The position numbers and the translations under genes are program-made. A DNA stretch of 64,000 nucleotides from Astropecten irregularis. Its lineage: Eukaryota; Echinodermata; Asteroidea; Paxillosida; Astropectinidae. Location: the NCBI GenBank assembly GCA_963971285.1, contig OZ020258.1, forward strand, positions 3,162,001 through 3,226,000, in the 5' to 3' direction. The notes below the pieces were generated by a model. That model was not told the origin of the DNA. It made no database searches and was given only the letters and a program-made list of their open reading frames with translations. Positions 2,914-35,958 of the stretch are shown piece by piece. Within the stretch, counting starts at the first letter, position 1. Every line of letters begins with the position of its first letter.

Positions 2914-3289
2914 AAATGTACAATACATGATTGGTGAAGGTCACAGAACAGCACTCAAACTTAGTCTGATCCAGTATGTTCATGAAATGATAAACCTGTG
3001 AAAATTTGAGCTCAATCGGACATCAGTCTGAGTCACGAGAAAATAGCGAAAAAACTACTCACTTTTTCTTATAAAACATGAAGAATGGAGTTGATTGATA
3101 TTTACCCTGATATCAAAACTGTTTTCGGTAAGTTGTTTGACTAATTTCATGATAAATACACAATTTCAGGCGGAAATATTTGAACGGTAGGCCTACGTTT
3201 CTACCAGCACCATCTTCATATCCTGTAAATAAAGTAAATCTGTGAACATTTCTGTTTAGGTAGGCCTATGTTACCAATCCTGTACTTTA
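2914..3289 (-). mobile_element. MITE-like family B with two GGCCTA insertions (B2)
   Basis: Near full-length minus-orientation copy, from a TGTACAATACATGATTGG end to CCAATCCTGTACTTTAG. Compared with other B copies it carries two exact extra hexamers: GGTA becomes GGTAGGCCTA at 3188-3195 and at 3261-3268. Otherwise it follows the family. Confidence 0.85.
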
Positions 3290-3966
3290 GCATCGTTGAA
3301 TAACTGGTCAATTATAGGTAAATGACCGCCACACCTTGGTCACAGTTTTGCTTATTTATTTATGCATCTAGAAGCGACGATTTGAAAAGTCAAACTTGTT
3401 GGTTCTCCTTGAACGCTATCGGGAAAAAACGATTAAACGCACTAAGTCAAAAGGCAAACAACCGTCACGAAATAAGCGGAAATCAGTTTTCAATTGACAC
3501 TGAGTGATAGGCATCCCACGCCATATGTAATTACTGAAGCTGACCTTTCAAAGTGTAATGTGATAATGTACTCATGAATTTCCATCATAGTAAAGCACAA
3601 TTAGTGTAGCAATGGAATCGGACAACTTGACCTAGACATTATATGTGTCAAGAGTGAATACAAACAGTGTCATTGTGGACGTTCATATACCCCACTCAGT
3701 GCCTACAGGGGGTCATGGTAGAGGAGGCGTTGATAGATATGTGTCCTAGCTTTATATTCAAGCTACACCAGGAAAGTACTACACCAGTCACCACTTATCA
3801 AGCTCAATTTCAAAGTACCTAGGAATTGAAATGCCTCAGGATATCACGTGTACTAAACATACTAGACATGATGGTATGTAAGCTTCCACTGGTTTAAAAA
3901 TAAAGAAACATGCATCATGGAAGAAGAACCCACCCCCTTCTCCGTCACAAGTCATCGCCTTCATCC
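3290..3966. other. No gene seen
   Basis: Non-coding sequence with no recognised repeat. A 61-codon plus frame at 3322-3507 has no recognisable content. Confidence 0.4.
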
Positions 3967-4323
3967 TTAAAGTTAACATCATACTTTGGTTTTTGTCAAA
4001 GAAATACAGATTCATGGGCAAAAATATCAAGACAGATACAGTAACAGTCATCTGTGAAAATTTCAGTCCCTTGTGGTGCCCATGCACTTTTTGAGAAAAC
4101 AGTGAACAGCCACAGTATATCTTAAGTCTTTTGTCTTTAGTTATTGATCTTTTAAAAGATCAACAAGATTTTCGGTCGTTGTTTTAATAATTTCTGGATG
4201 AATACAGCATTTCAGGCGGAAACATCTATGTTTCCACCACCACCATCTTTATACCCTGTAGGTTATACGTACATCTGTGAACACTGTTTTGGTTTCTTAC
4301 CAAAGTATGATACTACCGTTACT
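3967..4323 (-). mobile_element. MITE-like family A, near full length (A3)
   Basis: The left end is TTAAAGTTAACATCATACTT and the right end CAAAGTATGATACTACCGTT. It keeps the internal GATCTTTTAAAAGATC palindrome and the GTTTCCACCACCACCATC block. Confidence 0.85.
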
Positions 4324-5110
4324 CTAACCTTATCTGTTCATTGCAACTATCAAGGCAGTATCTTATCTTAATGGAATGTAAATTTGTAAGTAAAAACAAA
4401 GTAAAAAGTTATGAACATGCAATATAATGTAAGACCAGACGTTATAAAGAGAAGCTCTAAAGGTTTACCCAAGTCACACCACGGGTCATTTCCGGACGCT
4501 GGTGGCAAGGAACTGGTTGTCTCGAAGAGTGTAAGAGATACATCTCAACCTACATACAAGCATGACATACATTTTGTCAAGGACTATGTACTGTAGCAGT
4601 TCGACCTCCGTCTGATCTACTTCATGTATGGAGCAACAGTGTCATGAAATATAGGTCATGTTTAGACACGGATCCAACAATGTGTATAATACAGGTGCTA
4701 GTAATACGGCACACGGGAACATTAAATACCGTTCAACTTATGACCCAGTACTACGGATCGTCTGGACTGTGTAAATTCTCTATATGATTCAAATGTTGAC
4801 CAAGAGTTCACGACTTTTGAGAGTTTGTATACATTCTACATCTTACTTACACGGTGATGTATAATGTATGGATAATAATACGCAATCTTTGTTGTATACT
4901 CAAACTTGTCTCTGTTGATCTAAGGTCTATGAGACTGACATTTTACTGTGCAGACACATGATTCGATCAACAATAACATGATCAAGTTGGCTGGAGTGAA
5001 AATTTGCCCGAGATGGATTCTGCTTTTCAAGAAAGGCCACGCCGTCACAGAATGATCCAAAATGGAAAAGACATTGAAAAGTTAAAAAAGCCAAATTGAT
5101 TGGGTATGTG
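4324..5110. other. No gene seen
   Basis: Non-coding. A 61-codon plus frame at 4411-4596 has no recognisable domain. Confidence 0.4.
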
Positions 5111-5215
5111 ACGGTATGTTTCTACCACCACCATCTCCATACCCTGTAAATTTTACGTAAAATCAGTGAACATTTCTGTATTGGTTTCTTACCAAAGTAT
5201 GATAGCCCCTTTAAT
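5111..5215 (-). mobile_element. MITE-like family A, terminal fragment (A4)
   Basis: About 105 bp of the shared A/B left half with the family-A terminus: ACGGTATGTTTCTACC through CCAAAGTATGATAG and TTTAA. Confidence 0.75.
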
Positions 5216-7065
5216 GTTACTAGCATTGTAACTGATCCTTGGTATGTGTGATTCTGACTTGCAAATGAGGCAAGAAGCTTGTCGGCCTGTAACACCTCCA
5301 ATTATGACTGCATAGCTCAGTCGGTACTCCACTAGAAGTGATTCACCGTCATTAATGTTTAACGAATTTACATTAATATTTTCCATTAATATTTTTTTGG
5401 TAAAAGAACAAGACATGTGATGAGTTTCATTTCATGCTTTAAAAAAAACACCCTGCCCTAAATAATTATGACAGTGTAGTTGGTGATATCTGCATGTCAT
5501 TGGCCGAGCGTACAGTTCTATGTGGACTCCCACAGTCCGTGAAAGTTTGAACTGCCCTCGGGCTCGCCGAAGAGGTCCCCTTGGCTGCATGCAGTCTGTG
5601 ATTAAAATGAAAAACAATACACAAAACCGTACTTCACTGACCTGGGCATGGGTTTTAAACCGTGCACATGTGGGAATAACCTATGCAAGGTCACCACTGA
5701 CACATTCGTGGAGATTGTTAAGAATGGAAATAATAATTCTTCGTCGAAACTCGAAATAACAATCTTTCCAACACGACAAGCTTGAAATATGACACTATTC
5801 ATTTTGGTCGGCCAAATCGACGTGAACTATTATAAAAACGCGTAAAGGATGTCCACTTATCCCATTCTAAATAGAAGATGGTAACTAAATTGTTTTGACA
5901 ATCCAAAGTGGCTCCAGTCTCACGCGGTATCGTCCCATGATTCTCTCAGTCTAGTTTCATTATTGTCGAAGGCTCATATTGGCAACTTATAACTCTAACT
6001 TGTGCTGCTGTGCAGTGAATCAATTAGCCACATGAAGGGAAGAACGGCCACGTCCCTCTCAGTTATTCACAGAAAGAGAAGATGATGAAATATTAACCCA
6101 ATGATAAACTAAATACCTTCTGTAAATTACATACCTCTAAATTTCTAAACGTCCTTTCATCTTTGTTTTTGGATATCCTGCCCTGTTCCCTAATGTCATA
6201 CCATTATACTTCGTTATTGCTTTATTTATTACCTGTATAGTTGAATATCTACAGAAAATGTAGATAAAAGACCATACATCAATCATACCTTGACAAGTAA
6301 GTGAATTTTTCATGGGATGGATTTCACCAAACACTAAGATTATTGTTAAGATGAGTTGTTAGTATCACAATAGTGATTTGTATTGTGACATCACAGTTGC
6401 TTAGCAATTAAAATTGGTTCGCATTTAAAATTAATCTCGGTGCTTCGTAAAATCTGTTTTGTTTTATTATAAAGTTTGTTTGTTTGTTTGTTTACGGTTT
6501 GACGTTTCATTGTGGACGGGCCAGCTTGAACGTGCACATGTATATAGTGCAGTGTTTGACTGATCAGAATGCATTTCTCTTATTACCTTGTCTGTCATTA
6601 AAGTTATTTTTTATCTTCTGACATTTCCTTGTTTCTAAAAAATAACGGAAATCTTACTGATTGGATCTTTGCACGTGGTACTGGTTTGGGGACAATAAAG
6701 GTACGCCTCATTATTCTATAAATAAGATCACATTCTGCCACCAAATGAAGACTGATTCAAAGTCCCAATTAGTGCGTAATAGGACTGCATGTTGAATTGC
6801 TAATGATGTTTGCTTAGTAAACAAACTCATATGGTAAGCACGTTTCACGAATGCCTGTCACTTCAATCACACAATGAAACATCTTTAATGGATTTGATGC
6901 AAGCATGTCAGACCTGCTAAGCTAGTGAAGATAAGATCGATCCAGACAGAACGTTTCAATTACAAGCAGACCCAAATCAGGTGCGACCGACTACGTGGCC
7001 ACCACACTGTATAATAAATATACCAGCATGATCTTAAAACTTCATGACTATTATTATACTAACCA
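5216..7065. other. No gene recognised
   Basis: About 1.85 kb without a supportable gene or known repeat. Short overlapping frames on both strands (60-79 codons) look like chance. A small TTTG tetranucleotide run lies at 6474-6494. Confidence 0.4.
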
Positions 7066-7307
7066 GGGGCCAATTTGAAAGAGCTGAATGTGCCTAAGCA
7101 CAAACAACCTTAGTGAATAAAATCAGTAGCCCTACTGCCAGGCAAAACTCCTTGCGAATGTTATGCTCAGCAAACAATGGAAAAAAAAACAAGTCAAAAG
7201 CAGTAAACATCACATGGAAATTCGGTTGGTAATCTTGTTTTATCAAGAAAGATTTTTCTTGCTTATGCAAATTTGGTGCTTAAGCAGCTCTATGAAAAAT
7301 TTGACCC
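7066..7307. mobile_element. MITE-like family C, divergent subfamily (C1)
   Basis: Ends are GGGGCCAATTTGAAAGAGCT and AGCTCTATGAAAAATTTGACC. The interior (CTCCTTGCGAATGTTATGCT) matches the copy at 18,531 but not the other C copies, so it defines a subfamily sharing only termini and part of the right half. Confidence 0.8.
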
Positions 7308-7605
7308 AGTTATCTCGTATCATGTAATGATACATCTCGTGAATGACATGAACGGATATCTTGTTTCAGTTACTGTTGGCACCTATCTACAAATCCGACC
7401 ATTGTTATTAAGAAAATGTAACACAAACTACCAGCATGAGGTACGGTGGGAACACTTAGATCAAAAGGCATCATTTCTGAAATTAGGTATAGGTTTTGAA
7501 TTTCTCTGATCATTTTAACCACAAATGACCCAGAGCTGTCAAACGTCCATGTGAATTGTGCTAATCTGGTGATTTAGGCTAGCTCTTTAGATACATGTAG
7601 GCCTA

Positions 7606-7888
7606 CATGAAATAATAAACCTGTGAATATTTGAGCTCCATCGGACAACTGTGTCAAGAGAAAATAGCGAAAATTTCAATGTTTCTTATAAAAGTTTAAG
7701 AATGGTTTTGATCCTACCCCGAGATCAAAACTGTTTTCGGTCTTTGTTTTACTCATGGCTGGATAAATACACCATTTCAGACGGAAATATTTTAACGATA
7801 TGTTTTTATCAGCACCATCTTCATACCCTGTAAGTTATACGTAAATCTGTGAACATTTCTGCTTGGGTATGTTACCAATCCTGTACTG
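7606..7888 (-). mobile_element. MITE-like family B, truncated, with a GGCCTA insertion (B3)
   Basis: Contains the B-specific TTTGAGCTCCATCGGAC block and the end GTTACCAATCCTGTACT. At 7598-7605 the family's ATGTACATG is ATGTAGGCCTACATG, an exact six-base insertion at TA on the edge of the copy. The outermost part of the terminus is missing. Confidence 0.8.
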
Positions 7889-8888
7889 AATAATGTCTTT
7901 ATACTGGTTTTATCGACAGGTAAAAGATCACCTACGTTGAGCTAGTAGAACGTTATTTATATGACAAGGATATGAAGAAACGATTTCCAAGGCTGAACCC
8001 CAACAGCACGTGTGAGACTTGTAATACAAATCCTCCTATAGCGTAAGACTGGCCTTGGACAGATAAATGAAAAACATACTGGTTGGGGCTCATATATACT
8101 CATGCTGTAATACTCGTGGTCATGCCTGTACATGTTCTATCATTTAATCAGGTGTGTTCCTGTTTTCAGTAATGAGAAAGGAAGGATATTTGGAATGCTT
8201 TAACAAGCCCAAATAGACCATTCTTTGTGTAGCTTTATTTGCCTCGCTTTTTCGACCAATAATTGGCACTTAGTATTGTCCGGAGACTGATATCCGCTTG
8301 TTGTGCGCACAATTTCTATAATTCGAAAAATGACCAGGAATGGGTCGGTCGTCCTTGGAGGCGGAAATCAGACGGTTAAACTGCAGTCGTCTAGACTGGA
8401 CCCACAATAGTTTCATACAGAAAGCAACCAATATAGTACGATCGAATGTGGAATTACAACTTTTACTACCGTGCCAAGAAAATCCTCAAGCTATACGGCG
8501 CTAAGCCTTACACAGTAAGAATGTCGACCCAATGTTTTTACCTCACGCTACGTCCAACTCCAATCGTCCAAGCCAAAGAACATACACAAGTACATGTACA
8601 CATACATTCCGAGCATCAATTCAACAAATGATGTTGTTGCTTACATCATGGAGGAAGGAACACACTTGCTCTGATCATGGAGAATGTTCCATTCAATGCT
8701 CCTAACGCTCATCCCATGAACGCACGTTCTGTATAAATCGGTGTAGCATAATTACATTCTGTGTTAACATTCCTACATGGTTGCCAAACGTTCTCTAACT
8801 ATCAAATCTGTTAAACGACTAGACATACAATTGGGTGTTTTTAAATTACCGGGAATTGAAGGTCCCACAAGTGCCGGCTGATTGTGTG
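7889..8888. other. No gene seen
   Basis: Non-coding, with only a 61-codon plus frame at 8446-8631 of no recognised identity. Confidence 0.4.
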
Positions 8889-9172
8889 GTCTAGTTTGAT
8901 TTTCCTCGGGGTTGGAACCGGATCGAACTCCGGGATTACCTTTTCACACTTCGAAATCGGATCGAATTCAACCTTGGTAGGGACCAGGGTTGAAAAATCT
9001 CTACCCGGTTCCAAACTGCATTTTTTTTTCGCTGTGAACTGTGTCATATCAGCCGGTTCACCATAGGCCCTAAACGTAGTGTGAATGTTGCATATTTGAT
9101 CCGGTTCAAAAACTTGCCGGGCTGAACTGGGATGGATCCGGGTTGGTTTCAACACGGATCGAAAAGGAGGTG
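8889..9172 (-). mobile_element. MITE-like family F, degraded copy (F1)
   Basis: Reverse-complement relative of the intact copy at 63,286-63,636: it shares GAACCGGATCGAA, ACCAGGGTTGA, the CGGTTCCAAACTGCATTT stretch and TTTCAACACGGATCGAAAA. The terminal inverted repeats are not preserved. Small frames here are part of the element. Confidence 0.75.
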
Positions 9173-9278
9173 TGCAATAAGAGACGCTATGCCTACATGA
9201 GAGTCTGGTGTTTCATTCCCAGCAGGATCACGTTTAAAGACTCAAATTGGTCAAAGGCTAAAGATCCAATAGAAATCG

Positions 9279-9510
9279 AAACGTCAGGCCCTGAAAGACG
9301 TCATCATTGCGTCATGCGCCGACACGTCGCGTTGACTCTTTCCGTCGGGGCGCACTTCAATTCTCTGTATAGTAGTTGCAAAGGAGGCGGAACGTCGGGC
9401 GGCACCACGGACTTATCACGATGCCAGTTGCTTCGCCTATAATTTGTAGCCTGTAGGCCTATATTGCACTTGCAAAAGAGGCGACGTGATGGTGGATAAG
9501 GGCGATGTTG
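9279..9510. promoter_or_regulatory. CpG-dense patch with CRE-like sites
   Basis: An isolated stretch with roughly 20 CpGs in a CpG-poor surrounding. It contains GACGTCAT and GCGTCAT (CRE/ATF-like) and two TTGCAAA-GAGGCG direct repeats. It could be a promoter, an enhancer or part of an unrecognised repeat. No confident gene lies beside it. Confidence 0.25.
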
Positions 9511-10514
9511 AAGGCGACATGCGACGCAGTTTTGTCGTCTTCAGAACATCATGCATAATGTATAACAACTAGACCTACACATTTTCTGCACGACAGGTGA
9601 AAGCGTGGCCCCTTGCTCCCCCTCCTCCCCACTGTCTTCTCTGTGTTTCAGGGACACTGAGGTGCACTTTGGCATGTGGTTTGAACTACCAGTCTGCAAT
9701 CTGTGCTGATTTATTAGCAGTGCAACTGAAACGTACACCGGAAGTTAAATCTTCTCTGACAACATCAGTATGTAGGTCTATCCGTGCTATTTGGATAGCT
9801 CTAGCCTTGCAGTGAGATACACTGCGCTGTACTGTCAGGGTGACAACCACAAAACACACGACAGGTGCTGACTAGAAATGAGAGTAAATACCACAGTGTA
9901 TGGCAACACTGATATGTGCATAGTTTCATCTCATCAAAACACCTGTCCGAAGACATCGACTCCGCCTTATTGCAGCACCTGTTCAATAACATATGAAAAA
10001 AACCTTGTACGTGTTTGGCGTCTGAAGCTCAACATCTTTGCATGGATTTATATGTTGATATGTTAGGCAGTTCAGAACGACTCAATATCCGCCGCGCTCC
10101 CTGACTAATTCTGAACAAATGTATTAGTACTGAGACCCAGTTTCGTTATACTGTGGAGCAACGTCCCTAGATCTTCTAACAATTGTTCCTTGAACCTTCC
10201 TCCATGCTTGAGCGTGGTGGAACATTTTGTGTTCTGAACACATGTGGCTGATAGATAGTCTGGTCAAGATGCAGATGACAGTGCATCACCTTGCTGAATT
10301 ACAGGAACATGATGATTTTGTGACAACGCGGCAATCTCCCCGTCAGATCATGGGACCGTTTCCGTCATGAGTCAACCCGGACTGGCAGTTGGGAAACACC
10401 CTCGATCCTTATACTCGGCGCCTTCAAGTTCCAAGTCAATCTCCTCCCATGATCCATTCTAAGTAAGGGTACTAGAAGGAAAGAGGTTACAGAGATCACA
10501 AGCAAGGAAGACAT

Positions 10515-10647
10515 AGGGCGTTTACGAAAAGGAGGCTCAGGCTTCGGCTCCATTTCGTGAATCAATTTTTAAATAACAGGTATCAAAATAGAGACTTTTG
10601 GCTGCGGTTGCAGCGGTTCGGAAATTTATTCTCTGGTTTGAAAAGAA
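10515..10647 (+). mobile_element. Fold-back family G, truncated copy (G1)
   Basis: Begins GGGCGTTTACGAAAAGGAGG, matching the terminus of the complete copy at 49,181-49,582. It continues with AATAGAGACTTTTGGCTGCG and TTCTCTGGTTTGAAAAG, both also found in that copy on the opposite strand. It is cut off by a family-A fragment. Confidence 0.75.
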
Positions 10648-10701
10648 AATCTGTGAACAATTCTGTTTTGGTTTCTTACCAAAGTATGATATTACCTTTA
10701 A
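10648..10701 (-). mobile_element. MITE-like family A, terminal fragment (A5)
   Basis: Only 54 bp of the terminus, TCTGTGAACAATTCTG through AAGTATGATATTACCTTTAA, joined directly to the truncated G element. Confidence 0.7.
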
Positions 10702-13011: not shown

Positions 13012-13240
13012 AGAATAAGTGGCCAATACATAATGAAAGAAAGATGAAAATCGGGTTTTGAGGTTGGGTAACTCAGTTTTAGTTTTCCCCCACAATTTCA
13101 GTCCAATTTTTCTCAAATTCTACATGGTGATATCCAAGACATGGCTGTATCATATATCTGAATCTTGAAGTAATAAACAGTTTAATTTTAATACAATGGT
13201 TCTCAACACTGTTGCGTTTTTGGGGGACACGCTGTATATG
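13012..13240 (-). mobile_element. MITE-like family E, one end (E3)
   Basis: Shares AGATGAAAATCGGGTTTTGA and TTCTACATGGTGATA with the full copies at 28,333 and 30,892. Ends GTTGCGTTTTTGGGGGACAC followed by GCTGTATATG. The other terminus is replaced by the family-A element. Confidence 0.8.
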
Positions 13241-13966: not shown

Positions 13967-13967
13967 G

Positions 13968-15390: not shown

Positions 15391-15660
15391 AGCATGGAGC
15401 TATGGAAGCTAGCTCCATGATTACAGTAGCTAAAAGCAGAATGTAGGCCTACTCCGTCAACAATTTCGGTAACATTTTCGGTAACATGTTGCCAAGGTAG
15501 GGCAACACATCTGTGCAACACGACTTTGGGCCCTGCGTACACCAGCAACATTTTGGCCAATATGTTACCAAGATGTTGCTGCGACATGTTACCCAACTTG
15601 TTTTGCTCTGTGTATACTGACATCATTTTCAGCAACAAGGTACCTGGGCAACATGTTACA
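15391..15660. repeat. Small fold-back region with ACATGTTRCC motifs
   Basis: Opens with a 9-base perfect hairpin (CATGGAGCT/AGCTCCATG, 15,393-15,419). It is followed by several direct and inverted versions of GTAACATGTTGCC, ending GGGCAACATGTTAC. It may be a decayed fold-back element. The minus frame at 15,387-15,638 lies wholly inside it and is not counted as a gene. Confidence 0.45.
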
Positions 15661-16352
15661 AAATAAATGTAATGCGTGTAACTTTGAAGGTCAAAGACGA
15701 ATTAGAATAAAGAACAGACATTCTAGAAGTACATGTATATAGTTTCATTTCACTTGTGTTATGCTAAACAATAAATGTAATACAACTTGTCCCAATATGG
15801 GGAAATATTGGAGAACTTCCTTCTCTATGATTTACGATCTCCATGCTTTCTGGTGATAAATTGAGGAAGTCACAAATTCCCACAGGCAGTAGTGTAACCC
15901 TGAACTAATTCAAATTGTAGAGGGACCATTTGTGTTATCGCTTGGGCCTTCTGCTTAGGACCTGTGTGTTTTACACCAGTGTAAACACTTCTGGGGGACC
16001 TATGGGCACAGAAACGGATGTTTTCAGTTCAGAATGATTTCTCGCAACGGAAACTCTGTTATTATTTTTCAATGATCAGAATGCAACTAGTTATTTGGTT
16101 GCGTGGTTAAATACTTTCACAGATCTGGCCTTGGTCCGTACATCGCTGCATGCAGAGCATTGGGCCGGCCAGGTATAAGCAGCATTTATTATAGGCCTAC
16201 ATAACAACCTGTTATTTTTAGAAAAATAAGAATTCGTGATTTCCTTTTATTACGAAGGAGCTCTTGTGTAGTTTCACCTAGTTAGTACGTCAGCAATAAC
16301 TGATTACTGATTTATCTTAGATCAGCTGGCAGGAGGTGGCACATTACGGGGG
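15661..16352. other. No gene seen
   Basis: Non-coding between repeats. A TAGGCCTA octamer sits at 16,192-16,199. Confidence 0.4.
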
Positions 16353-16852: not shown

Positions 16853-17360
16853 AGGACATTTACAGGCACCGTCGCGTCGCCCCATCTGAATCCGAATGTT
16901 GCATTTCAAAGACGGAGACTGTCACAAGTTTCAGACTGGAACGGTCAGAACACAGAAGGCGTACACAGGTTGCAGACGGCCGGGTGGCGAGCTCCTGTGC
17001 AGTACCCCAAAGTACCAGTCCTCGGAATATCTGTTTTCTGTCTAGGCCTACAATTTGATGTATTTAGACTACACGATTTCCATTGAAGGAGATACTGGTC
17101 TAAAAGACAAGACCGACATGATATAGACGAAGATGTTTGATGCCAGCTGAAGAGATCTGACTCATCACCAATGAGGGTTAAGAGTTGACTGGGATGGGAG
17201 GGTGCGGAAACACTAAGCCATCTTCTAAAATAGAAACTACATATGCAATTCCCCGTTTTCGATAATCGGAGCTCATGACACGTGTGCAGGCGCGTTTACT
17301 AACTCGCTAATACTTATCAAAATGCACTACATTATGCATCAGGTTTACCACCTTTTATCT

Positions 17361-18775: not shown

Positions 18776-19367
18776 AGGTGCTTAGAAAATGCCAGGATGA
18801 GCTAGTGATATTGAATCCTGGCACTTCTATCCCCATTGTCCCATTGACGACAGTGAATCACCAACTACATGTTCATTTCAATGCTCGGGAAAACGTGCGA
18901 GTTATAGCAGTTTAATTCATGCCGTGTTTTATAACTCAACCTTCGTTTGTCTGCCCGGGTATTATTAAATAACTGCAATGTGTACTGGTCTACATATACT
19001 GTGCAAGTCATGCTAATGATGACGACGAGCTTAAATTCATTTTTGGTCGTTAGCTTAAAGCTTTGAAATAAAATAGAAATTCAAAAGGTTGTAATTCTGT
19101 GATTATACTGGTATAGGCCTATCGCTGATTTTCAATTATTAAGACCATCTTGTATGATGCATAGATAGTGAACATTCAGGGCAGATGACGTAATGAAAAC
19201 ACGTAGACGACTTGGGAAGACCCAAGCTTAATATTTTGATCCTCCAGACCCAGTTGCCCAAATCCTGGATTTGTGTCAGCCTTATGTTTATTGTATTCAC
19301 TGTCTAGGCTATACATACAACTAGGATCCACCAGCCATAATGATATCATGGGTGCTGCAGCCGTCAG

Positions 19368-23459: not shown

Positions 23460-24584
23460 CTAGTTCGTACACGCAGAGATTAAGGAAGCAAAACTAGTGT
23501 CCAGCCAATCGCCTTGAATCATCTCACTCACCTCTGGAGTCATGTAGTCAGGGAACTCGAAATGTGACCCGTTACTGCTGCATGAGTCCAGTGGGCTCAG
23601 GTCGTCTGCTAGAGAACCCAAATCCTGCAACGAACCAAAGTCAAAATTTGGCCATGTCGATGTGAACAATTCCTCAGTCAGACCGGCGAGAGGGTTATTT
23701 GGCTGGGCGACATTCAAGTCCGTATGAGTACTGTTATTGTTAACGGGAACAGTGGAAGGTTGCTGTTGTTGTAGTTGTTGATGATGATGCTGATGATGTT
23801 GCTGCTTGATCATTACAGGAGCAATCCGTTGGTGATGCTGCTGTACTTCGGGCTGTTGTGGTTTACTGCACACATCAACGTATTCCTCGTACATACTCCT
23901 ACCGTCAACGGGAGAGTCTGGTGTTGATCCAGTGGGGCTCGATGGGACCTTGGCTGGCGGGGTAAGTTGCGTCGATCCCAGATCGATAGCCTTGCTAGCT
24001 TTGATACTCTCCCTGAATTTCTTGTCAATGGTGAGCTTCAGCTTAGGGACACGGTCAGCTTTGCTGTGATGATGGCGAGATGAGTTCTTGTTCTTGTTCT
24101 TGGAGCTATGCTTGTGCTTGGTGACACCACCGGTACGGGCTGGGTTTTCTTGTTTGGTGGTGGGCTTGGCCTTCTTTCTCGGGCGATACTTGTAGTCGGG
24201 ATACTCCTGCATGTGTAGCAACCTCAGCCTCTCTGCTTCCTCAACGAATGGGCCCTTCTGAGTCTCGTTCAGAGTCTTCCATCTGCGTCCCAGCCGCTTG
24301 GAAATCTCGGCGTTGTGCATCTCAGGTTGCGTCTCCATGATCTTTCTTCTCTCGATTTGTGACCAGACCATGAAAGCGTTCATGGGCCTCTTGATGTGAC
24401 CGTTGTTGGCTTTCCAGTTAGTCTGGCAAATGTCCTCTGCAATGTCCAGCGTGGATTGTTGCAGTATCGCACCCAGATCAATGCCCGACATACTCAAGTC
24501 GCTGCCCGTGCTACTCTCCGGAGAACTTGGTCCGCTGGATTGACCGCTACCGATCAGGCTTATGCTCTGCGTCTGAGGTACCAT
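23460..24584 (-). CDS. SoxC: SoxC (Sox4/11/12-type) HMG-box transcription factor
   Basis: Intronless frame of 374 codons. The HMG box spans about residues 63-141, with RPMNAFMVW at 66-74 (the Phe-Met wedge that inserts in the DNA minor groove), [14 protein letters not shown] at 90-103 and [13 protein letters not shown] at its end. The basic clusters at both ends of the box are the usual Sox nuclear-localisation signals. A Lys/His/Ser-rich linker (about 152-182) and a Gln/His tract (about 248-276) follow. An acidic C-terminal domain contains [20 protein letters not shown] (343-362), the recognisable SoxC activation motif. SoxC proteins bind ACAAT-type DNA in the nucleus and drive neural and progenitor differentiation. 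The start is the first ATG after an in-frame TAG at 24,663-24,665 and has a strong context (ACAACCATGG). Unusual: the extreme C-terminus reads SLISACTN, not the FTY-type end of vertebrate SoxC. The family call is firm; orthology within the animal is inferred. Confidence 0.97.
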
Positions 24585-24665
24585 GGTTGTAAAGTGTTCC
24601 GTCTCTGATGTGACGACGATTACTTCAGTTGAAAGTGAGGTATTAACGGTATATTGGAATGACTA

Positions 24666-25021: not shown

Positions 25022-27414
25022 CGCTATGTGTGTGGGTCATGCTGTGGACATGTACATGTGTATCATGCACATGTATTCATAGCGTGTTGTTGTACCCTAC
25101 GATGTACGATAAAGTGTACATGTATTTCAACATGTCTCGAGCGCTGTAACATCTGTATTACATTGCATTGAGTGATTTCTACAGCTCTCAAAACTTCAAG
25201 ACAAGCAAAAAACCCAAACATAATGACATTTCAGCCATCCATGTTTTACTGGGATTGATCGTGAGGTTACTTCAAAAACCCAATGATCATTTCCTTATGA
25301 TTCCACAATATCAAACTAAAGCTTTCCCCAAGCTGTTTTCCCAAAACTCACACAACTTAAAAGTTGTTTTGTAGAACCCCCAAGAACTCCAAATCCCCCT
25401 CGTTGGTATAAACTTTTATTCCGCCGGCGGAGCTCTTAAACTTGAGAGGCTATAAAACGTTAGTGTCTAGGGCAGGTGGTTTGGGGGACAGGACAACAGG
25501 CGGCGCAATACCTTCCTGACGGCTGGGCATAACCGAGGCCCCGTTTCCATAACTTGGGGTCAGGGTTAAGGGGTCACTACACCAAACATGATTGGACACA
25601 TGTAAACTCTATACCAAGGTTGCCTTCCAAATAAACAGCGCATAGGGTGCTGACGACTATTTTGCAGTTTTTATTGAATCATGATTGAATGTTGCTCAGA
25701 TGCCTTGCTTCTAATTCTTACTGAAGATGGACGCCTTCGGCTCATTCTGTTATTTTTGCTTTAATACAAGTTACAACGTGAAGTATTATAGTAACTTCCA
25801 CTTCCTTGGGATTGTACTCATAATAGCACAGATCGGCCAGCTCTAGAACCGTAGAAAACAAATTTAAATAGTCTTTAATGTACTGCAAAGTTGTGAATAA
25901 TCGACAATTGTCGTAACTTTATTTCGACGTAGTTTTATAATTAATGACACACTTATTCCAACAACAATAATACGTCTTGTGCTCACAGTTTCCCAATGTT
26001 ATAATTCTCTGAAATAACACGTTGTTTGGTGGTCCAAGTGGTATAAGTCGTGTAAGCCTAGTAGGCCTACAACTTACAAGTAGTTGGATCTTTTCACTAA
26101 AATTCTGTAAAATCAAATTATGTCCACTGTTTAATCTAGAATGTCAACTCGTTAGTTATTCGCAGAACTAGTAAGACATCCTGAAAAAAAGTCAAAATGT
26201 CATCGTGGGCATAAGCATCTCAGCGAATTTCTTTAGCGTAATGTGTAATAGCGAATCAGGCCTGCTTGTGTGTTTCATGTATATTACGCCAGGTATTCCA
26301 AAATGGCTCGTGGGAATAGGTTGCAATCTGCAATATTCCAGATAGTCAGTAAAATGGTATACTGTAAGAAAGTGAAACTGTGCGCCATGAAAATCACATC
26401 CTATCTTTCCTCCATGATATTACACTTCACCTCTCAAATGCACTGGGCCCGGTACAACCAGCCTTACTCCACAACTGTATGGTACAACAGCCCATGCATG
26501 TATCACACAGCTACAAGTGTACAAAAATATGGTATGTTTGGTCCGGACCGTCAGCCTGTCTTGGTGGTGTCCCCTAGGAATCCTGTTTTACTGCCCCATA
26601 ACCGTTTACTGCAGTAACATTTAATATCATGATACGACCCCCTTATGAACGCCTTGAATAACTGACAATTTTCTCCCTTATTTTCACGAGGAAGAGACAC
26701 TTCTGAGATGAGAAACATAACGCCAAGTTTAGAGTAATCGATCTTTTACAGGGTCGTGCACTTTGAATCATTCAAAAAAGCAGGAAATTAATTTTTGTCC
26801 TAAAAAAAGTTGGGAAGGTTTGTTGCTTCGAAAGTGAAACGCTGGCCTGAAAGGGAACCCAAAGATCAATATTTCGGATTCGGTTCTTTTTTTTTTGTTA
26901 GTGTTTTCCCCCCATCCCATGCGAGGGTCGCGTGCCAAAGATTGCACAATGGCTGTGGTGAGAGCCCCTTATGAATAATCCAGTGGACTACCCGTGGCGT
27001 ACATAGGCGTGGCTTATTCCAACAGGCACGTGGCGGGTCTGTAAAGGGTGCGTGATTGGCACACCACGGGAGATTGGTGGTGGTTTTTTTCTCTCCAGGA
27101 TTCACGGTTCCCAGTTTTGGTGGCCATTATGGTACCAAGCTTAGACAGGCTGTTCCAGACATCATCACACCCCCACCCGGTAAAAAAGTATTCGCAATCT
27201 TGCAGCAATTCCAAAGGTCCTTTGCCGCAAAATAAATGGTGTAACTGCGAAATACCTTGTAATACTTTCGTTACAATTTAACTTTTATTGATAAAGTTTT
27301 GATACATAAAGTGATTATTCTAGGACAGTTGGGACATTTTATCTATGAGAAACTTAGGCATACATTTCGAGATGTCTGTGTACAGACCAAAAGCTGCTGG
27401 TTTCTTTTAAAAAT
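25022..27414. other. No gene recognised; repeat-free flank upstream of SoxC
   Basis: About 2.4 kb of non-coding sequence lacking every transposon family of the window. A 115-codon plus frame at 26,270-26,617 and overlapping frames near 26,866-27,281 have no recognisable domains. It may hold SoxC regulatory DNA (inference from the repeat-free state). Confidence 0.35.
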
Positions 27415-27779: not shown

Positions 27780-28332
27780 GATGAAGTGAACTTAAAGATC
27801 ATAAAAGTTGTTACCAAAGGTAAATGCTTTCGTCCGATGTACGCCCAGCAGACGCAGTGCCTACGTTAACCTGTCATCATCAGGCAGTCTTGTATGACAC
27901 AAAAAGCTTCGTTACTCAGCCTTTGGCACTCAGACGGCCACAATTGTAATGAATTTTATCAAACCCATTGCCATGATAACACTGAAGTTTAGTTTTGTAC
28001 TATTTACGGTACGACTACTTTTCAAGTGTTCGAAAGTGATATGCAAAATCCAACGGGGGTGCAATCACCTTGCCATGATGTTCAGAATGAACCGCACTGG
28101 CTGAAAAATAACCGCACTGACTGAAAAATTAAGATTGTTCGTACCGTGCCTACGGCTCCAAGTGGAAATGTCACTAGTATCAATTAATGTAATGGCCAGA
28201 GGACATTCTCTCTCTCTTCCATGTTTCCATAGACACGTTTTCCTTGACATTCAGCAATATTTATTACTCTCAAAACAGGAGTGCTAATATACAGATACGT
28301 CTTTCACAACCGCATAATGGATGGCAGGCTTA
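27780..28332. other. No gene seen
   Basis: Non-coding. It includes a short local duplication (ACCGCACTGGCTGAAAAATA and ACCGCACTGACTGAAAAATT, 28,090-28,130). Confidence 0.4.
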
Positions 28333-28766
28333 TACAGGGTGTCCCAGAAAAAAACGCAATACTGTGTCGGGACCCATAATGTTAAAATTAAATTGTTTAT
28401 CACCTCAAGATTCAGCTATATGATACTCATCCATGTCTTGGCTATCACCATGTAGAATCTAAGCAAAATCGGGCTGAAATTGGCGAAAATATTACCAATT
28501 CAAAAGAGTACTCTTTAAAAACAAATTTGCAGTATTCCTGAGAATAAGTAGTCAATGCACACATAATGTGTATTGAAAGAAAGATGAAAATCGGGTTTTG
28601 AGGTTGGGTAATTTCGTCTGAGTTTTCCCCTCAATTTTTGTCAAATTGTGCTCAAATTCTACATGGTGATAGCCAAGATATGGTTGTATCACATATCTGA
28701 ATCCGAGTGATAAACAGTTAAATTTGCATATAATAGTTCTCGACACAAAGTGTTGCGTTTTTTTAA
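28333..28766 (+). mobile_element. MITE-like family E, right terminus lost (E1)
   Basis: Starts TACAGGGTGTCCCAGAAAAA after TA. Its interior matches the copy at 30,892 in opposite orientation. It ends at GTGTTGCGTTTTTTTAAGG, where the GGGACACCCTGTA terminus should be but is absent. Long internal repeats around TTCTACATGGTGATAGCC allow a fold-back structure. Confidence 0.85.
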
Positions 28767-29593
28767 GGAGAACATGAACAAAATCAGTTCAGTTTCAAGC
28801 CACGAATTCTTTCCTTTTGATCCACCACAAGCAGCGCACCTGTTGGACAGTTGTTTGGAGTCGCCTTCATCAACAGAAGTAGGACCTCAATTCCCTTACA
28901 CAAACATCTTCACCAACTGGGTCTATACCTGAAAATCGAACAACAAAATATTATGATCACAAACTTGTGTAATAATGACACATTTGCAATTATTATCTTT
29001 TCACACTAAAAAAAAAACACAAAAAAAAAAACAGAGAGAAGACACATCAGGCACGTGTTCTTCAACGTGTGTGCGTGAATATAATATAGACTTGAAAGAA
29101 AAAGAGTCCTGCATTTAAAAAAAAGTGCCAATCATAAGGTATGGATTTAACCTTGCACTAAAATAATATTGTGCGCCAATAATATCGGTGGAGTACAATG
29201 GTGGTAGGCAGAGATAGTTTAGACTGTTGAGGCCAGTCTGGCGGTCTGACAAAGCAGTAAGTACGGCCTTGGTAGCTGTCATAGCACGGATCGACGGAAC
29301 GTGCGACAAATAAGTTGGTCGCGAGCGGAGGTATGAATTCGTGTTATTCTTTAGTTGAGAATCGGGTTGACCCGCCCTACAAACAATTGAACCTGCTTTC
29401 AAGACAGCACGGAATACATACATTTAGAATGATAAAGGAAAATCCAAACTAAAACGACTGGGAGGGACCAATTTATTTTTAAACCCCACCTGATGAAAAC
29501 TACTTAGTTTAAATAAACAAGTAAAGTTAAGTCTTATACTGAATACATTTGAATATGGCAGGCCTTAACAAATGGAAAGTAATGTATTTAAGT
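28767..29593. other. Possible short coding remnant, otherwise no gene
   Basis: The plus frame ending at 28,932 is open for about 45 codons after the element and reads like ordinary protein (...SHEFFPFDPPQAAHLLDSC...), ending at TGA. It could be a terminal exon or pseudogene fragment, but no family is recognised and no strong acceptor site precedes it. The minus frame at 29,115-29,423 (102 codons) is also unassigned. An A-rich stretch lies at 29,009-29,032. Confidence 0.2.
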
Positions 29594-29865
29594 TTAACGG
29601 TAGAGTACAGAATTGGTAACATACCCAAACAGAAATGTTCAAAGATTTACCTATAACTTTCAAGGTATGAAGATGGTGCAGGTACAAACTTACTGTTAAA
29701 ATATTTCCACCTGAAATGCAGTAATTATCCAGAGATTAGTAAAAACAACAAATAAATAAGAACAAAAAAAAAATACTGTGGCTGTTTTTCACTGTTTTCT
29801 CACTAAGTGGGCATTTTCAAACTTTCACAGATGACTGTTACTGTATCTGTGATAGGCGTGATACT
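29594..29865 (+). mobile_element. Chimeric family B/A MITE (B6)
   Basis: The left end and shared half are family B (GTAGAGTACAGAATTGGTAA). The right part switches at about 29,760 to family-A sequence (AATACTGTGGCTGTTTTTCA, GATGACTGTTACTGTATCTG). The right terminus is missing. Confidence 0.8.
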
Positions 29866-29933
29866 AGTGATAGGCGAACACTAATTGTATACTCGTGGAT
29901 TTCATTTTAGTTTAACTTGTTTTTAATTTAATC

Positions 29934-30045
29934 ATCAAATACATGTAAAACCACAATGGAAACTGACTGAGTTTTATGTCATTGAAAGGAGTGAACAAAA
30001 AACATTGACTGGAGCGGGATTCGAACCAGCGACCTCCTGAATTAG
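29934..30045 (-). repeat. tRNA-derived SINE-like fragment
   Basis: Read on the minus strand, 30,018-30,028 is GGTTCGAATCC, a perfect tRNA B box, in the context CGCTGGTTCGAATCCCGCTC as in a tRNA T arm. No matching A box, anticodon arm or acceptor pairing is found upstream, so this is not a functional tRNA gene. The plus-strand start (ATCAAATAC...ACCACAATGGAAACTGACTG) resembles the outer arms of the fold-back element at 39,075-39,461. Confidence 0.5.
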
Positions 30046-30891
30046 GTTTTAGTTTAACTAGGTTAATTAGTTATTCATGATTCGTACAATGCGTCTTTGT
30101 TGTGTGTCCGAGTTAAAGATCATTTCTACTGCGAAATTTAAATGGAACTCGGCACCATTCTTGGCCATTCTAATTTCCTATCGTGACACTCATTCTATTG
30201 TCGCAGGCGTCAGTGGTGAAGATTTCCCAGAGGGGTGAGAAGCAACTAATCTAACAGCGTGTTTACTTTACCTCGATAGGGTTTTCGTGTACTACATAGT
30301 GTAGCCAACATCTGTGCATCTGTAATTTGTACCCCGCTACCCTTAAAAAGAAAACCACAGGGAATGTTATCGATTGCACATTTTGATGTAGAATGTAAAT
30401 TCAGCCATTGGACCATTCATGGTTTAATATTTAAACTGAATTTATTTCGTTGCCAACCAAGGAATGTTGAAGACAAGTCCGGTCAATGCAGTGTGGTGTA
30501 ACCGTTAAGAGAAACTTCACAATTAAGTGTTAAGATTAATCGTAAAAGTTTGCTAGGAATTCGTAATCATTCTGTTGAGCGTGCCAGCTATAGTTGTTAT
30601 CAGATGGATCAATACTATTGATAAAGTGAACAGGATATGAGAGCTACCAAGTATCGCTGGCACCTGCCTGGAATTAGGCAGAAACTACCCTATGAAAGCT
30701 TCGCTTTAGTCCGCATTAAACACCTGGTTCGATCGCTGATAATACCCCCTTCACCCCACTCATCCCTCAATAAGGTATAATCTTTCAAGAAAGGTACAAG
30801 GAATGTCATGATACAGTTAAGTCCTGTAGCAATTTCTTCACTGAAGACACATAGGAATGATGTATTATGGCTCTGTAACAAGGTCACACTA
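30046..30891. other. No gene seen
   Basis: Non-coding, AT-rich, with no recognised repeat. Confidence 0.4.
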
Positions 30892-31335
30892 TACAGGGTG
30901 TCCCCAAAAAACGCAACACTTGTGTCGAGAACTATTATATGAAAATTAAACTGTTTATCACTTTAAGATTCAGATATGTGATACAGCTATGTCTTGGCTA
31001 TCACCATGTACAATTTGAGCAAAATTGGACAACAATTGAGTGAAAAACTAAGACTGATTACTCAACCTCAAAACCCGATTTTCATCTTTCTTTCATACAC
31101 ATGTGTGTATTGACCACTATGCGTGTTAATGTTATCCTTGCAAATTTGTTTTTAAGGAGTACTCTTTCATTTGGTCATATTTTCGCCAATTTCAGCCCGA
31201 ATATGCTTAAAATTCTACATGGTGATAGCCAGGACATGGCTGTATCACATACCTGAATCTTGAAGTGATTAAGAGTTTAATTTTAACATAATGAGTACCG
31301 ACATAGTGTTGCGTTTTTTTCTGGGACACCCTGTA
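30892..31335 (-). mobile_element. MITE-like family E, intact (E2)
   Basis: Both termini are present: TACAGGGTGTCCCCAAAAAA and its inverted counterpart ending GGGACACCCTGTA, each flanked by TA. TA flanks and CAGGGTG termini fit a Tc1/mariner-type non-autonomous element (inference). About 444 bp, no coding capacity. Confidence 0.88.
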
Positions 31336-32606
31336 TAAATTAGATTCATTTACAGTTTAATAATTATGTCTCATGCAAATTAATCAGCTACTCTGTCCTT
31401 AGCCCATGGATGACCGTTCAAGACCAGATTACTCCTGTCTCCCTTTCTTCCCCTTGGTAACCAAATTTCCCATGAATGTATAGAACTTCAATGGTCAAGA
31501 AAGGTGCAGTGTGCGACCGGAAGCAGAATGACCATGACTGGGGGAATATTGTGATGTTGCTCGGTGCATGCAGTCTGCGGCGCCAGGGCAGCTGCTTCCC
31601 CCACGACGGGTCAGAAGCATTCCTTGGTTCAGAAAACAAACAAAAACTTATGAGTCTCATTCAACTTTTTGATTCCATGTTGAGAAAAAAAAATCATGGT
31701 GCCAGTCATTTACCACAGTATTATAAGTACCTATAGAAGGAGAATGCGGTTTCATTAAAAAAAACTGGACTTTAATCCGGCTTTTGTGTCAGGTACCGGA
31801 GCAAACATTTTAATGAGTATGCATCGGGGTTGCTGTGCAGTAAGGTGGTTGTACGCGCGGCACGTGTCGGATAGTTTGCCACGCGACAGCCCTATTCATC
31901 CCATTCACAGCTTAAGGCCACAACAACGAGGCCTGCTATCTGATTGGCTGGCTAGATTTTAATGATGTTCCCAAAATAGCTCCCATTGCTGGGTAACAAG
32001 TGCCTGTACAATTTGGCCAATACGGGGTAGGGCAAGGGGGGACAATCCCGCCTGAATTATTCCCTGATTGGACTCGGCTCTGGCATGGGGTCAGCCGGTA
32101 GGGACATCGTCCAGAGCGCCTGTCAGTCACGTGATGGTAATCCTGAAATCTGCAGGTCTAAATACCGTGGATCGGTAGTATTATGGGAAGAGAATTAACT
32201 ACATATATCTCAGCCACTGGGTTACAAAACCGGTTATCAGTCCTGAGAAAATACACTGACTTGCCCGTTATTTTTCAAAAGATTTTGATCAAAGTGATGC
32301 TGAAAAATCACGTATAAAGGGAGTTTTTCCCACGACCTCTTTTCATTTTCATTGTGAGAAAGTTAAAATTCTTGCCGTGATCTTCTCAAACTGAAAGGGG
32401 ATGGAAAACAGTGTGCGACGTTAATTTTCAAGTGAGCCCAATAACCTAATGTAACTAAGCAGTAATTCTTGGTGTATATTGATTTTTCTAACTTTCAAAT
32501 TCATGAATCAAATACATGTACTTCGGTAGCAAACACTGGTCCAAAAAGTGGTTGGAAATCAGAAGTTAGCCCTAAGTTCACGGAAGCCCAGAAAACAGTC
32601 AACTAT
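31336..32606. other. No gene recognised; CCAAT/E-box-rich patch
   Basis: About 1.27 kb non-coding. The part at 31,850-32,160 contains several CCAAT-type motifs (GATTGGCT, TTGGCCAAT, GATTGGAC) and a CACGTG E-box (about 32,128), which might be regulatory. Small frames here are unassigned. Confidence 0.25.
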
Positions 32607-32719
32607 AGGCCAAGTTCGTTTGTGACGAATCCTGTGGATCCGGATCCCATTTTAGCGTACCCTGCATAGGACGTGGATCCAAAAATCTGGGATCCTTTTC
32701 CTTAAACAAACAGGCCCTA
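32607..32719. mobile_element. Short palindromic family H (H2)
   Basis: About 110 bp containing GGATCCCATTTTAGCGTACC and TTAAACAAACAGGCCC. It matches the element nested at 49,415-49,534. Confidence 0.75.
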
Positions 32720-33392
32720 TATCGTCATTATGAATATCATGTTTATCGCCATGATGCTGCATAAGATGTGACAGGTGTTTTACTATATACAAATAAGGGA
32801 CTGTCCCATTTTTCGGAGAATTTCGGTAAACCCCCTATTCCGCCCGATCCACCGAACATGATATTAAAAATACACACATTAACCACATACTGATTACCAT
32901 AACGTCTTTATCGATAAGGAATAAAGACTGGAATCTGTCAATGTCAACGGAAAGGTGCACGAGGGTTCGAGGGTGCGCCTTTTAGCACTATGGCCCTGGG
33001 CTGGTTTAGTTGTTATGGAACAATCACTTCAACGAAACCCAAAGGGGGAACCCTGCAAAGTACCGGGAAATGTACCTACTCACATAATAAAGATCCTATA
33101 CACTGTAACTGTATTCCATCTACACTATTTGTATTGACAATTTATCTACAATTTGCACCTGTTATTTCCTCATGACTCTAATTCCTGTCATAAAACAGGG
33201 AACAAACAAAAATCTTTGAATTACGATTTGAATAAAACTGTAAGCAAATGCAGCCAGCAGCTGTGGTATTGCAATTGAAAGAGGCACAAACTAGAAACAT
33301 TTAGGAAGTCATAAAATAATGAGTTCAAGAATGATACACAAAGAGAGCCATAGGTGAACATAAGGTAAACCATGAGGGAACTCAAATTCAAA
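32720..33392. other. No gene seen
   Basis: Non-coding. Minus and plus frames of 60-67 codons have no recognisable content. Confidence 0.4.
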
Positions 33393-33429
33393 TTAAAGGT
33401 ACGGTGCAGAATCGGTAATGCCAAAACTG
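33393..33429 (+). mobile_element. MITE-like family B, end fragment (B10)
   Basis: About 37 bp: TTAAAGGTACGGTGCAGAAT and a GGTAATGCCAAAACTG tail. Confidence 0.6.
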
Positions 33430-33948
33430 TTGAGAGTGGACGCTTACTATTTAAAAAGCCGATGTAAAAACAGTCTTTCTGTGACTACCTCAAACTGTAT
33501 GACGGCACAAACTTCACAGTTAAATTTGAAGCCATAACCTAAATTTATGTACCGTATCAGCATGGTGTGCTGATTTGTTCCCTTCGGAAGTTTGATTTAT
33601 AACACGATAGGTGTTCTGGGTGAAACAAAGTTACACAAACTTCTCCTTTTACTGAACTTCCAGGTTTCTTTCTCGCTAGAGGTGGATGGTGTTTATACAA
33701 TGTATTTCATGGAAGAGGATCATCAAAGTTCAGTCGTTAGACAATACTTCCCCCACAGGAAGCCCTCCCAAACTGCGTTGGAATCAACTCCATTAAATGG
33801 AGTGCAGGAATATTGGTAGAAAAACGTGCCACAACCACAAGCGGCCTAGTGACCGGATAATGTAAACATCGCCTGGAATAGTTTGAGGATTTTAAGGGAA
33901 ATACTTTGGGATCAAATTTCAGAGAATGTCGAGAACACATTGCGCTTG

Positions 33949-34447
33949 TTAAAAGTACAGTACATGATTGGTAACAAACCTAAACAGAAATGTTCACAGA
34001 ATTACGTATAACTTTCAGGGTATGGTACAGTACATGATTGGTAACATACCCAAACAGAAATGTTCACAGAATTACGTATAACTTTCAGGGTATGGTACAG
34101 TGCAGGATTGGTAACATACCTAAACAGAAATGTCCACAGATTTCACGTATACCCTTCAGGGTATGAAGATGGTGCTGGTAGAAACATACTAATCAAATAT
34201 CTCCACCTGAAATGGTGTATTTATCCAGAAATAAGTAAAACATTGAGCTTTGACTAAAACAGTTTTGATCTTGTGCTGAGACCAAAACCATTCTTTATGT
34301 TTTATAAGAAAAATTGAGTTGGTTTTTGATATTTTCTAGTGACTCGGATGTCTGATTGAGCACCCGAATTTTCACAGGTTTATCATTTCATGTACAAAGT
34401 GTGAGTACTGCTTTGTGACCTTTACCATGCATGTATTATACCTTTAA
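33949..34447 (+). mobile_element. MITE-like family B with a triplicated left end (B7)
   Basis: The terminal 70 bp (GTACAGTACATGATTGGTAA to TTTCAGGGTATG) occurs three times in a row, at 33,955-34,024, 34,025-34,094 and from 34,095. The normal element then continues to CATGTATTATACCTTTAA. Units 1 and 2 are nearly identical and share a GAATTACG variant; unit 3 has diverged more. Confidence 0.9.
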
Positions 34448-35147
34448 ATTAAAGACTTTGGTGATACACAGTACACAGATCTTTCAAATGAGTGAAACAA
34501 ACACCGTAACAAGTTTTGACGTGGCAGGTGACTATATTCCACTCATGGTAAATATTCAATGGGGCTTTCATCCTAGAAAACTCATCTGGTTATCTCAGAA
34601 CAGACGTTAGGAATCCTGTATCACATTATAAAATCAACATTTAAAAAATTATAGTAAACTAAAAGAGAATGGACATCATGCCTATAGCCTTGGTCCTTGG
34701 AATAGGAAAGGGCACCAACGAGAGCACAAGTGACAGTGTCAACCGATGACCGTCAAGAAGGTAGATGGTCCGAGGATAATTATACAATGCCCCTAGGCTA
34801 AATAATATTTTGAAGCGAGGCGAATGCATTGATTGAAGCGAGGCGAATGCATCGGCAGGTTAACTTGGAGGAAATCCAAGGTCTCGCTGACCTGAGTTGC
34901 CTTCTCGGGAGTCAAGATGCCCATCAGTGGCGGGTCATGTTCGTAGTACGAGGCCAAAGCTAAAGGCAAGGCAAGGGTTTCTGTTGTGTGTTTAGAGGTC
35001 GTTGGCTGATGATGCTGCTGAATAGTATATTCAGGAAGTAGATCGAATATTCACTTCATAAATACATGTACTTCAATGGAGCTGGTAACCTATACCTAAG
35101 GTATAGGGCAACTTCCATTGCACGAGAATTATGAATGAATAAAAAGC
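34448..35147. other. No gene seen
   Basis: Non-coding. It contains a small tandem duplication of GAAGCGAGGCGAATGCAT (34,813-34,851). Confidence 0.5.
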
Positions 35148-35523
35148 TTAAAGGTAATATCATACTTTGGTTTTAATCAAAGAAATACAGATTTATTGGC
35201 AGAAATATCAAGACAGATACAATAACAGTCATCAGTTTTCTGTTTAAAATTCAGTCCCATACGGTGCTTACTTTATATAAAACAGTTAAAAACAGCCACA
35301 GTATTTCTTAAGTCTTTTCTCTTTTATTTTTGATCTTTTAAAAGATCAAAAAGATTTTAAGTCGCTGTTTTACTAATTTCTGGATAAATACACCATTTCA
35401 GGCGAACAAATTTTAACGGTATGTTTCTACCACCACCATCTGACCCTGTAACTTATACGTAAATATGTGTACATTTCTGTTTTGGTTTCTTACCAAAGAA
35501 TGACACGGTACCCGGGCCTTTAA
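35148..35523 (-). mobile_element. MITE-like family A, near full length (A11)
   Basis: TTAAAGGTAATATCATACTT at one end. The other end is disturbed (GAATGACACGGTACCCGGGC) before CCTTTAA. Contains the GATCTTTTAAAAGATC palindrome. Confidence 0.85.
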
Positions 35524-35710
35524 AAATGCAGATTTGAGGTTTAGTAGACAGTAACCTTCTGTAGTGCAATTGAAGAAATAATTTGGATGAACTGACCAAT
35601 TCAGTTGCATGTAATCAAAAGAGATTATGAGTTAAAGTAATTTAGGACTCGATGTTGCAGTCCAAGATTTCTTCCCTGTGAGTACAAGTACTTTATTTTG
35701 AACTAACACC

Positions 35711-35958
35711 GGGGCCAATTTCATAGAGATGCTTAGCACAAAAAAATTGCTTAGCACAAAAATGGCTTGCCCAATAAACTGACAAACCACCATTGAAAAT
35801 TCCATTTGATATTCATGGTGAGCGAAACAACAGCCAAAGATTGCAAGTGATACACAACACATGGAAATTTGGTTGTTTAGGCCTATCCTGTTTGATCAAG
35901 ACAGAAAAGTCATGCTTAGCGATTTTTTTGTGCTAAGCAGCTCTATGAAATTGGCCCC
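35711..35958 (+). mobile_element. MITE-like family C, intact, with a GGCCTA insertion (C6)
   Basis: Ends GGGGCCAATTTCATAGAGAT and AGCTCTATGAAATTGGCCCC. At 35,878-35,885 the family's GTTGTTAATCC is GTTGTTTAGGCCTATCC, a six-base insertion at TA. Confidence 0.9.

Follow-up and report, generated by a model that had tools for sequence, protein, structure and literature searches.

A recurrent TA to TAGGCCTA insertion in the starfish Astropecten irregularis, probably left by transposon excision

The palindromic octamer TAGGCCTA is strongly overrepresented in the genome of the starfish Astropecten irregularis. We think that most of its copies are very probably footprints left by the excision of cut-and-paste transposons of the Tc1/mariner (IS630) kind, with several families at work. 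Our analysis started from a window of 64,000 nucleotides (the whole stretch C22:3162001-3226000, contig OZ020258.1) of an assembly that holds 475,729,200 bases in 168 contigs. The same scar arose repeatedly at the same TA in separate copies of an old miniature inverted-repeat transposable element (MITE), and the copies that carry it do not form a subfamily.

Mechanisms of this kind are known. A transposon would insert at a TA and duplicate it. When it is cut out, its first two bases would stay behind on each flank, and end joining would leave TA + GG + CC + TA in place of TA. The same process acting on elements with CA..TG ends would yield TACATGTA, and with CC..GG ends TACCGGTA. Minor forms of three, five and six bases would come from imprecise cutting or repair. 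We infer a transposase behind every break, a cut staggered by two nucleotides and, for the GGCC scars, a source element that has, or had, TA-GG..CC-TA ends.

Abundance of the octamer

The window contains 14 copies of TAGGCCTA, all exactly where the initial annotation had placed them. It had put the number expected by chance at about one; the expectation is 0.65 by dinucleotide shuffles, of which 0 of 100 reach 14, and 0.6 under an order-3 Markov model with the three satellite arrays masked. With satellites masked, the word ranks third among 31,447 observed 8-mers. The sole other clearly enriched palindrome of the form TA-N4-TA in the window is TACATGTA (17 vs. 2.55 expected). Thirteen loci of ten kb, one on each of 13 contigs (L001-L013), served as an independent sample, and both words are enriched there too, with 19 vs. 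1.26 expected for TAGGCCTA and 20 vs. 3.31 for TACATGTA. As a side observation, the second most enriched palindrome in this sample is TGACGTCA (20 vs. 2.72).

Genome-wide, TAGGCCTA occurs 67,886 times, and its reversed-word control (a word with CpG) 5,378 times. Scaling up the Markov model, with 2.2 expected per 231,635 sampled letters, to the whole assembly gives about 4,500 expected copies, so that the genome-wide frequency is about 15-fold above expectation; the scaling is only approximate because the sample takes in 11 loci picked for their transposases. Some of these occurrences were multiplied by duplication, since octamers also lie inside duplicated segments, at fixed spacings (L014/L015, 93% identical; L019-L021, about 95%). 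In the window, words one mismatch away from TAGGCCTA are only slightly enriched (19 vs. 14.5 expected), and hence many scars are intact.

Among words of the form TA-G(n)C(m)-TA in the sampled sequence, the 2/2 form alone greatly exceeds its expected number (37 vs. 2.2), and the 2/3 and 3/2 forms together reach 6 vs. 0.9. Genome-wide, TAGG[C/G]CCTA occurs 14,710 times vs. 1,877 for TAGG[A/T]CCTA, an excess that agrees with a G or C kept as third base from one end, though slippage by one base in GG or CC would give the same picture.

The second word, TACATGTA, occurs 156,842 times genome-wide. It is identical to TA-CATG-TA, the classic footprint of Tc1 in Caenorhabditis elegans, and elements with CA..TG ends are present here as well. 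What differs here is this number of occurrences.

Gains of six bases at TA

Comparing repeat copies with their sister copies shows whether a TA has gained sequence. The window octamers and the repeats that bear on this comparison are the following (no strand is assigned to any of them).

2021..2028, TAGGCCTA just outside the end of an A-family copy
2908..3383, B2, the B-family repeat interval that holds two insertions
3188..3195, TAGGCCTA in MITE copy B2; TA to TAGGCCTA (+6), adjacent T-to-C
3261..3268, TAGGCCTA in MITE copy B2; +6 at TA
7598..7605, TAGGCCTA at the edge of copy B3; sisters read CATG-TA-CATG
9454..9461, TAGGCCTA without sister sequence
15444..15451, TAGGCCTA without sister sequence
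16192..16199, TAGGCCTA without sister sequence
17043..17050, TAGGCCTA without sister sequence
19114..19121, TAGGCCTA without sister sequence
26062..26069, TAGGCCTA without sister sequence
35683..35984, C6, the C-family repeat interval that holds an insertion
35878..35885, TAGGCCTA in the C-family copy; +6 with one substitution
37520..37527, TAGGCCTA in an A-family copy; replaces sequence, no clean insertion
44054..44060, TAGCCTA in an A-family copy; probable variant one base shorter (TA to TA-GCC-TA)
48882..48889, TACATGTA in a B-family copy, the second footprint class; TA to TACATGTA insertion
49023..49030, TAGGCCTA outside the end of a B-family copy
62165..62172, TAGGCCTA within CATGTAGGCCTACATG, without a sister at the site

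The initial annotation had read four of these as insertions relative to sister copies, and these readings stand to different degrees. The cleanest is 3261, where eight of the 10 BLAST alignments spanning the site show a single six-base gap (seven sisters read TATG, one TTTG) and the remaining two differ more. At 3188 the six bases come with one adjacent transition, TATG to TACG, relative to the sisters. At 35878 there is again a gain of six, yet a further A-to-T change is required, as most sisters read TTGTTAATCC. At 7598, in the ragged end of B3, the change from CATG-TA-CATG to CATG-TAGGCCTA-CATG is seen in the multiple alignment, and BLAST ends there. Seven other window octamers have no informative sister at the octamer. 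At 44054, comparison with a sister suggests TA to TAGCCTA, one base short. In the empty-site comparisons the duplicated target is TA.

We also catalogued gains of 3-40 bases in repeat copies relative to their sisters, blind to any word, and kept those absent from at least three sisters and from a quarter of the sisters covering the place. In the window 23 gains pass. The four TA-flanked gains of at least four bases among them are all one of the two words: three are TAGGCCTA (3188, 3261, 35878) and one is TACATGTA (48882). When the fetched loci are included, the gains of 4-40 bases that pass number 32, eight of them TA-flanked, of which three are TAGGCCTA. One more TA to TACATGTA gain is found between L014 and L015.

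That the insertion recurs can be seen at a single TA. The B-family string around 3261 is found genome-wide 5,035 times in the empty state and 10 times, on 8 contigs, with exactly GGCCTA added; an octamer that is ancestral and deleted in sisters does not match this preponderance of empty copies. We compared 10 inserted with 10 empty copies, for which nine other inserted and seven empty copies were fetched and aligned with the window copies, leaving out L067 and w34050 (w34050 overlaps w34120). Mean identity is 76.5% between inserted copies vs. 77.9% between inserted and empty copies, and the nearest neighbour of an inserted copy is another inserted copy in 4 of 10 cases (shuffle mean 4.7). The inserted copies, spread over 8 contigs, thus resemble one another no more than they resemble the empty copies compared; therefore the insertion recurs, as the initial annotation had proposed. 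This test of independence covers the first TA and GGCC. One inserted copy, L065, has a second TAGGCCTA elsewhere in the element, again at a TA.

What else was inserted at such sites is informative. We searched genome-wide for a free gap of 1-12 bases between TAs at two TAs, the B-family TA at 3261 (first TA) and ACGGTA/TATGTTTCTACC (second TA). All counts that follow are from the first 100 places listed of 197 for the first TA and the first 100 listed of 307 for the second; a few of these places neighbour or overlap and may represent one event. At both TAs the commonest gap is four bases long. At the first, 33 of 100 places have such a gap and 14 of the 33 are palindromic (GGCC 6, CATG 4, CCGG 4), which has p 4e-9 against the 1/16 expected by chance. 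At the second, 28 of 38 are palindromic (CATG 15, GGCC 11, CCGG 1, TATA 1; p 5e-26).

The other gap lengths contain forms that fit remnants of terminal inverted repeats (TIRs). The first TA has CAG 3, CAGTG 3, and GGGCC and GGCCC once each, and two of the three CAGTG places lie 482 bp apart on contig C8; CCG (2) is also seen there. The second has CACTG twice and GGGCC, GGCCC, GGGGCC and CCCCGG once each. Over both TAs this gives CAG 4, CTG 1, CACTG 2 and CAGTG 3, as well as GGGCC 2, GGCCC 2, GGGGCC 1 and CCCCGG 1. Such a spectrum, with two or three of 16 palindromes at TA and extended minor forms, fits what is expected from terminal remnants of cut-and-paste elements. It favours transposon excision over a generic process that makes palindromes. 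Separately, nested forms at the second TA, GGCCTA (3) and GGGCCTATAA among them, suggest that a single TA was hit more than once.

In the window, a purine precedes 26 of 28 TAGGCCTA flanks (background 55%) and 31 of 34 TACATGTA flanks. In the pooled TAGGCCTA flanks the base just before the scar is G in 43% and A in 27%. GGCC and CATG octamers occur together in the first 325 kb of contig C1, where 7 of 38 lie within 30 bp, vs. 0.66 under uniform placement. The cluster spots that we fetched are runs of short TA-separated words that include GGCC, CATG and CTG.

Excision, its alternatives and the source elements

Elements of the Tc1/mariner group are cut with 3' overhangs of two or three nucleotides, and repair leaves a footprint with a TA duplication, as parts of PMC3878927 and PMC8151067 describe. 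Examples given in PMC3878927 are Sleeping Beauty, with C(A/T)GTA, Himar1 and Hsmar1. The scars in our starfish resemble these footprints in the duplicated TA, the few terminal bases between the TAs, the end joining and the minor length variants. They differ from the footprints tabulated there in the GGCC core, in their number (tens of thousands) and in that no matching source element for the GGCC class turned up in the roughly 240 kb scanned. Stowaway MITEs of the Triticeae leave 1-4 bp TIR fragments inside TA duplications, which, in the relevant part of PMC1925063, were likewise read from empty sites. That account concerns one gene intron across species, whereas here there is a genome-wide spectrum dominated by 2+2 palindromes. 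In the open-licence literature searched, we found no description of the GGCC core, of this number of scars or of MITE paralogues used as recorders from which a spectrum is read, and none of the missing GGCC source.

A number of observations weigh against excision as the main explanation. The purine preference drops to about 65% of 38 TAGGCCTA flanks in the 13-locus sample, with the background at 55%. The reversed-word control of TACATGTA is itself high (75,642 vs. 156,842). The larger catalogue of gains contains not only TAGGCCTA but also TA-flanked TAGGGGCCTA, TAGCCCCCCTA, TACCGGTA and TATTACTA, one each, and TACATGTA likewise only once. Among the listed places, 19 of 33 four-base gaps at the first TA and 10 of 38 at the second lack a palindrome; those at the first TA include CCTG (4), TGGG (3) and GGCT (2). 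The first TA further has 14 single-T and 7 TG gaps, which may be slippage, and slippage by one base in GG or CC could also produce GGGCC and GGCCC. No site was seen, in this one assembly, with an element in one copy and a scar in another. No resident TA-GG[G/C]..CC-TA element was found in the roughly 240 kb scanned (window and fetched loci), and the sole family with GG..CC ends that was found, TA-GGTTTT, fits neither the 43% G before the scars nor, with its third base T, the A/T variants, which are not enriched. Finally, about 63,000 excess octamers (some copied in duplicated segments) stand against few or no visible insertions, and therefore a very high ratio of excision to retention is needed.

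The single-T, TG and CCTG gaps at the 3261 TA could be slippage or other types of footprint.

For the CATG class, excision has suitable elements at hand. A search for the DDE_3 domain (PF13358) gave 11 transposase matches. One element, L029, has DDE_3, ends TA-CACTGG..CCAGTG-TA and thus both matching ends and the TA duplication. Two others, L030 and L031, have CACTGCCCTG ends, are 99.8% identical to each other and each appear damaged at one end. Elements able to leave TACATGTA therefore exist in the genome. The CACTG and CAGTG gaps match the CAC..GTG ends of these three DDE_3 elements.

For the GGCC class, the initial annotation had pointed to a TA-targeting transposon with GG...CC ends and suggested looking for one. 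The spectrum at the two TAs supports an excision footprint, and a GG..CC-ended TA transposon does live in this genome; a resident element with both the required ends and matching targets was not found in the roughly 240 kb scanned. The transposon found, L024, has ends TA-GGTTTTCCCGG..CCGGGAAAACC-TA and two open parts with DDE_3 matches, of which one scores above the curated cut-off and the other below it. Its exact TIR ends occur 308 + 312 times genome-wide, and the family has 42 matches from 40 scored of 903 first-look candidates. A further copy, L045, shows the TA duplication with GG..CC ends (ATTG-TA-GG..CC-TA-TAGT). One could argue that this family itself left the GGCC scars, as its ends, its TA duplication and its transposase fit. 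We consider this unlikely. In 14 of the 15 left ends seen the sequence is TATA-GG, with A before TA, whereas GTAGGCCTAC makes up 11,840 of the 67,886 genome scars. In addition, a third base T predicts TAGGWCCTA, which is at background (1,877), vs. 14,710 for TAGGSCCTA. Because of its targets and the lack of enrichment of the predicted T variants, L024 is unlikely to be the main GGCC source. A relative, L028, is 66.6% identical to L024 over 673 bp, and no TIR was seen in L028.

Other matches of the 240-kb scan lie inside longer inverted repeats, in the L024 element itself or in a 190-bp foldback. The foldback (L007:8776-8965) has TA-GGTTTGCGGTGACACC ends and was rejected as a candidate: its TA flanks may be chance, and similar end words occur elsewhere without TA. 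A TIR made of a run of Gs, suggested by TAGGGGCCTA and TAGCCCCCCTA, is at most a candidate: 6 of 50 runs of at least six Gs are preceded by TA, little above background. ISL2EU/PHIS transposons duplicate AT within AATT, according to the part of PMC4482050 that treats their targets. They were rejected as a source on target, the duplicated dinucleotide here being TA.

If excision is the origin, the GGCC source may be a ghost: a family that targets TA, has GG(G)..(C)CC ends and has left tens of thousands of scars and almost no retained copies. We regard this as quite conceivable, though somewhat more likely wrong than right. Such a family would be almost without copies because excision is far faster than the fixation of insertions. 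If so, the scars by themselves could tell how its ends read and which targets it preferred. More generally, if the excision reading is right, old high-copy MITEs would be thousands of parallel recorders, at each TA, of transposons that came and went; they would show how the ends read, how the cut was staggered and how repair turned out, also for families without copies left. Cut-and-paste traffic that is missed by copy counts would become quantifiable. It would also explain a strongly overrepresented word that might otherwise pass for a regulatory motif.

As unlikely as L024 being the origin of the GGCC scars is a process other than transposition that would place palindromic tetramers at TA, for instance error-prone repair or a host nuclease whose overhangs are palindromic. 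Such a process would account for the lack of a visible GGCC source in the sequence scanned and for the hot spots common to GGCC and CATG scars. A generic mechanism should not, however, prefer two or three of 16 palindromes. The main words, CAG and CACTG are also what TIR ends leave, and CAC..GTG ends are present in the genome.

We give hardly any credence to the view that no insertion took place and that the octamer reflects word bias, a binding site under selection or a word spread with a repeat family. Octamers do sit at fixed spacings in the duplicated segments, but the MITE empty-site comparisons, the lack of clustering among the 10 copies inserted at one TA and the weak enrichment of one-mismatch neighbours all speak against it.

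Other features of the window

On the minus strand (23463-24662) the window contains a 400-codon open reading frame that includes an HMG box, with SOX-11 and SOX-4 as the closest PDB chains; the rest is rich in repeats. The three satellite arrays are at 50606-54184 (unit 49 bp, 73 copies), at 57617-59924 (unit 26 bp, 89 copies) and at 48073-48613 (an ACTGG-type 5/21/26-bp repeat). Viral contigs gave no match to one exact 20-mer of the B family, in a search that may not have covered the genome from which the window comes. At 33955-34165 the end of a B-family element is present as three 70-bp copies in tandem. Mariner-like repeats lie at 28330-28797 and 30890-31354, with TACAGGGTGTCCC ends at 28331 and 30890 and, reversed, at 31337. 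A fragment near 13031-13240 is related to them.

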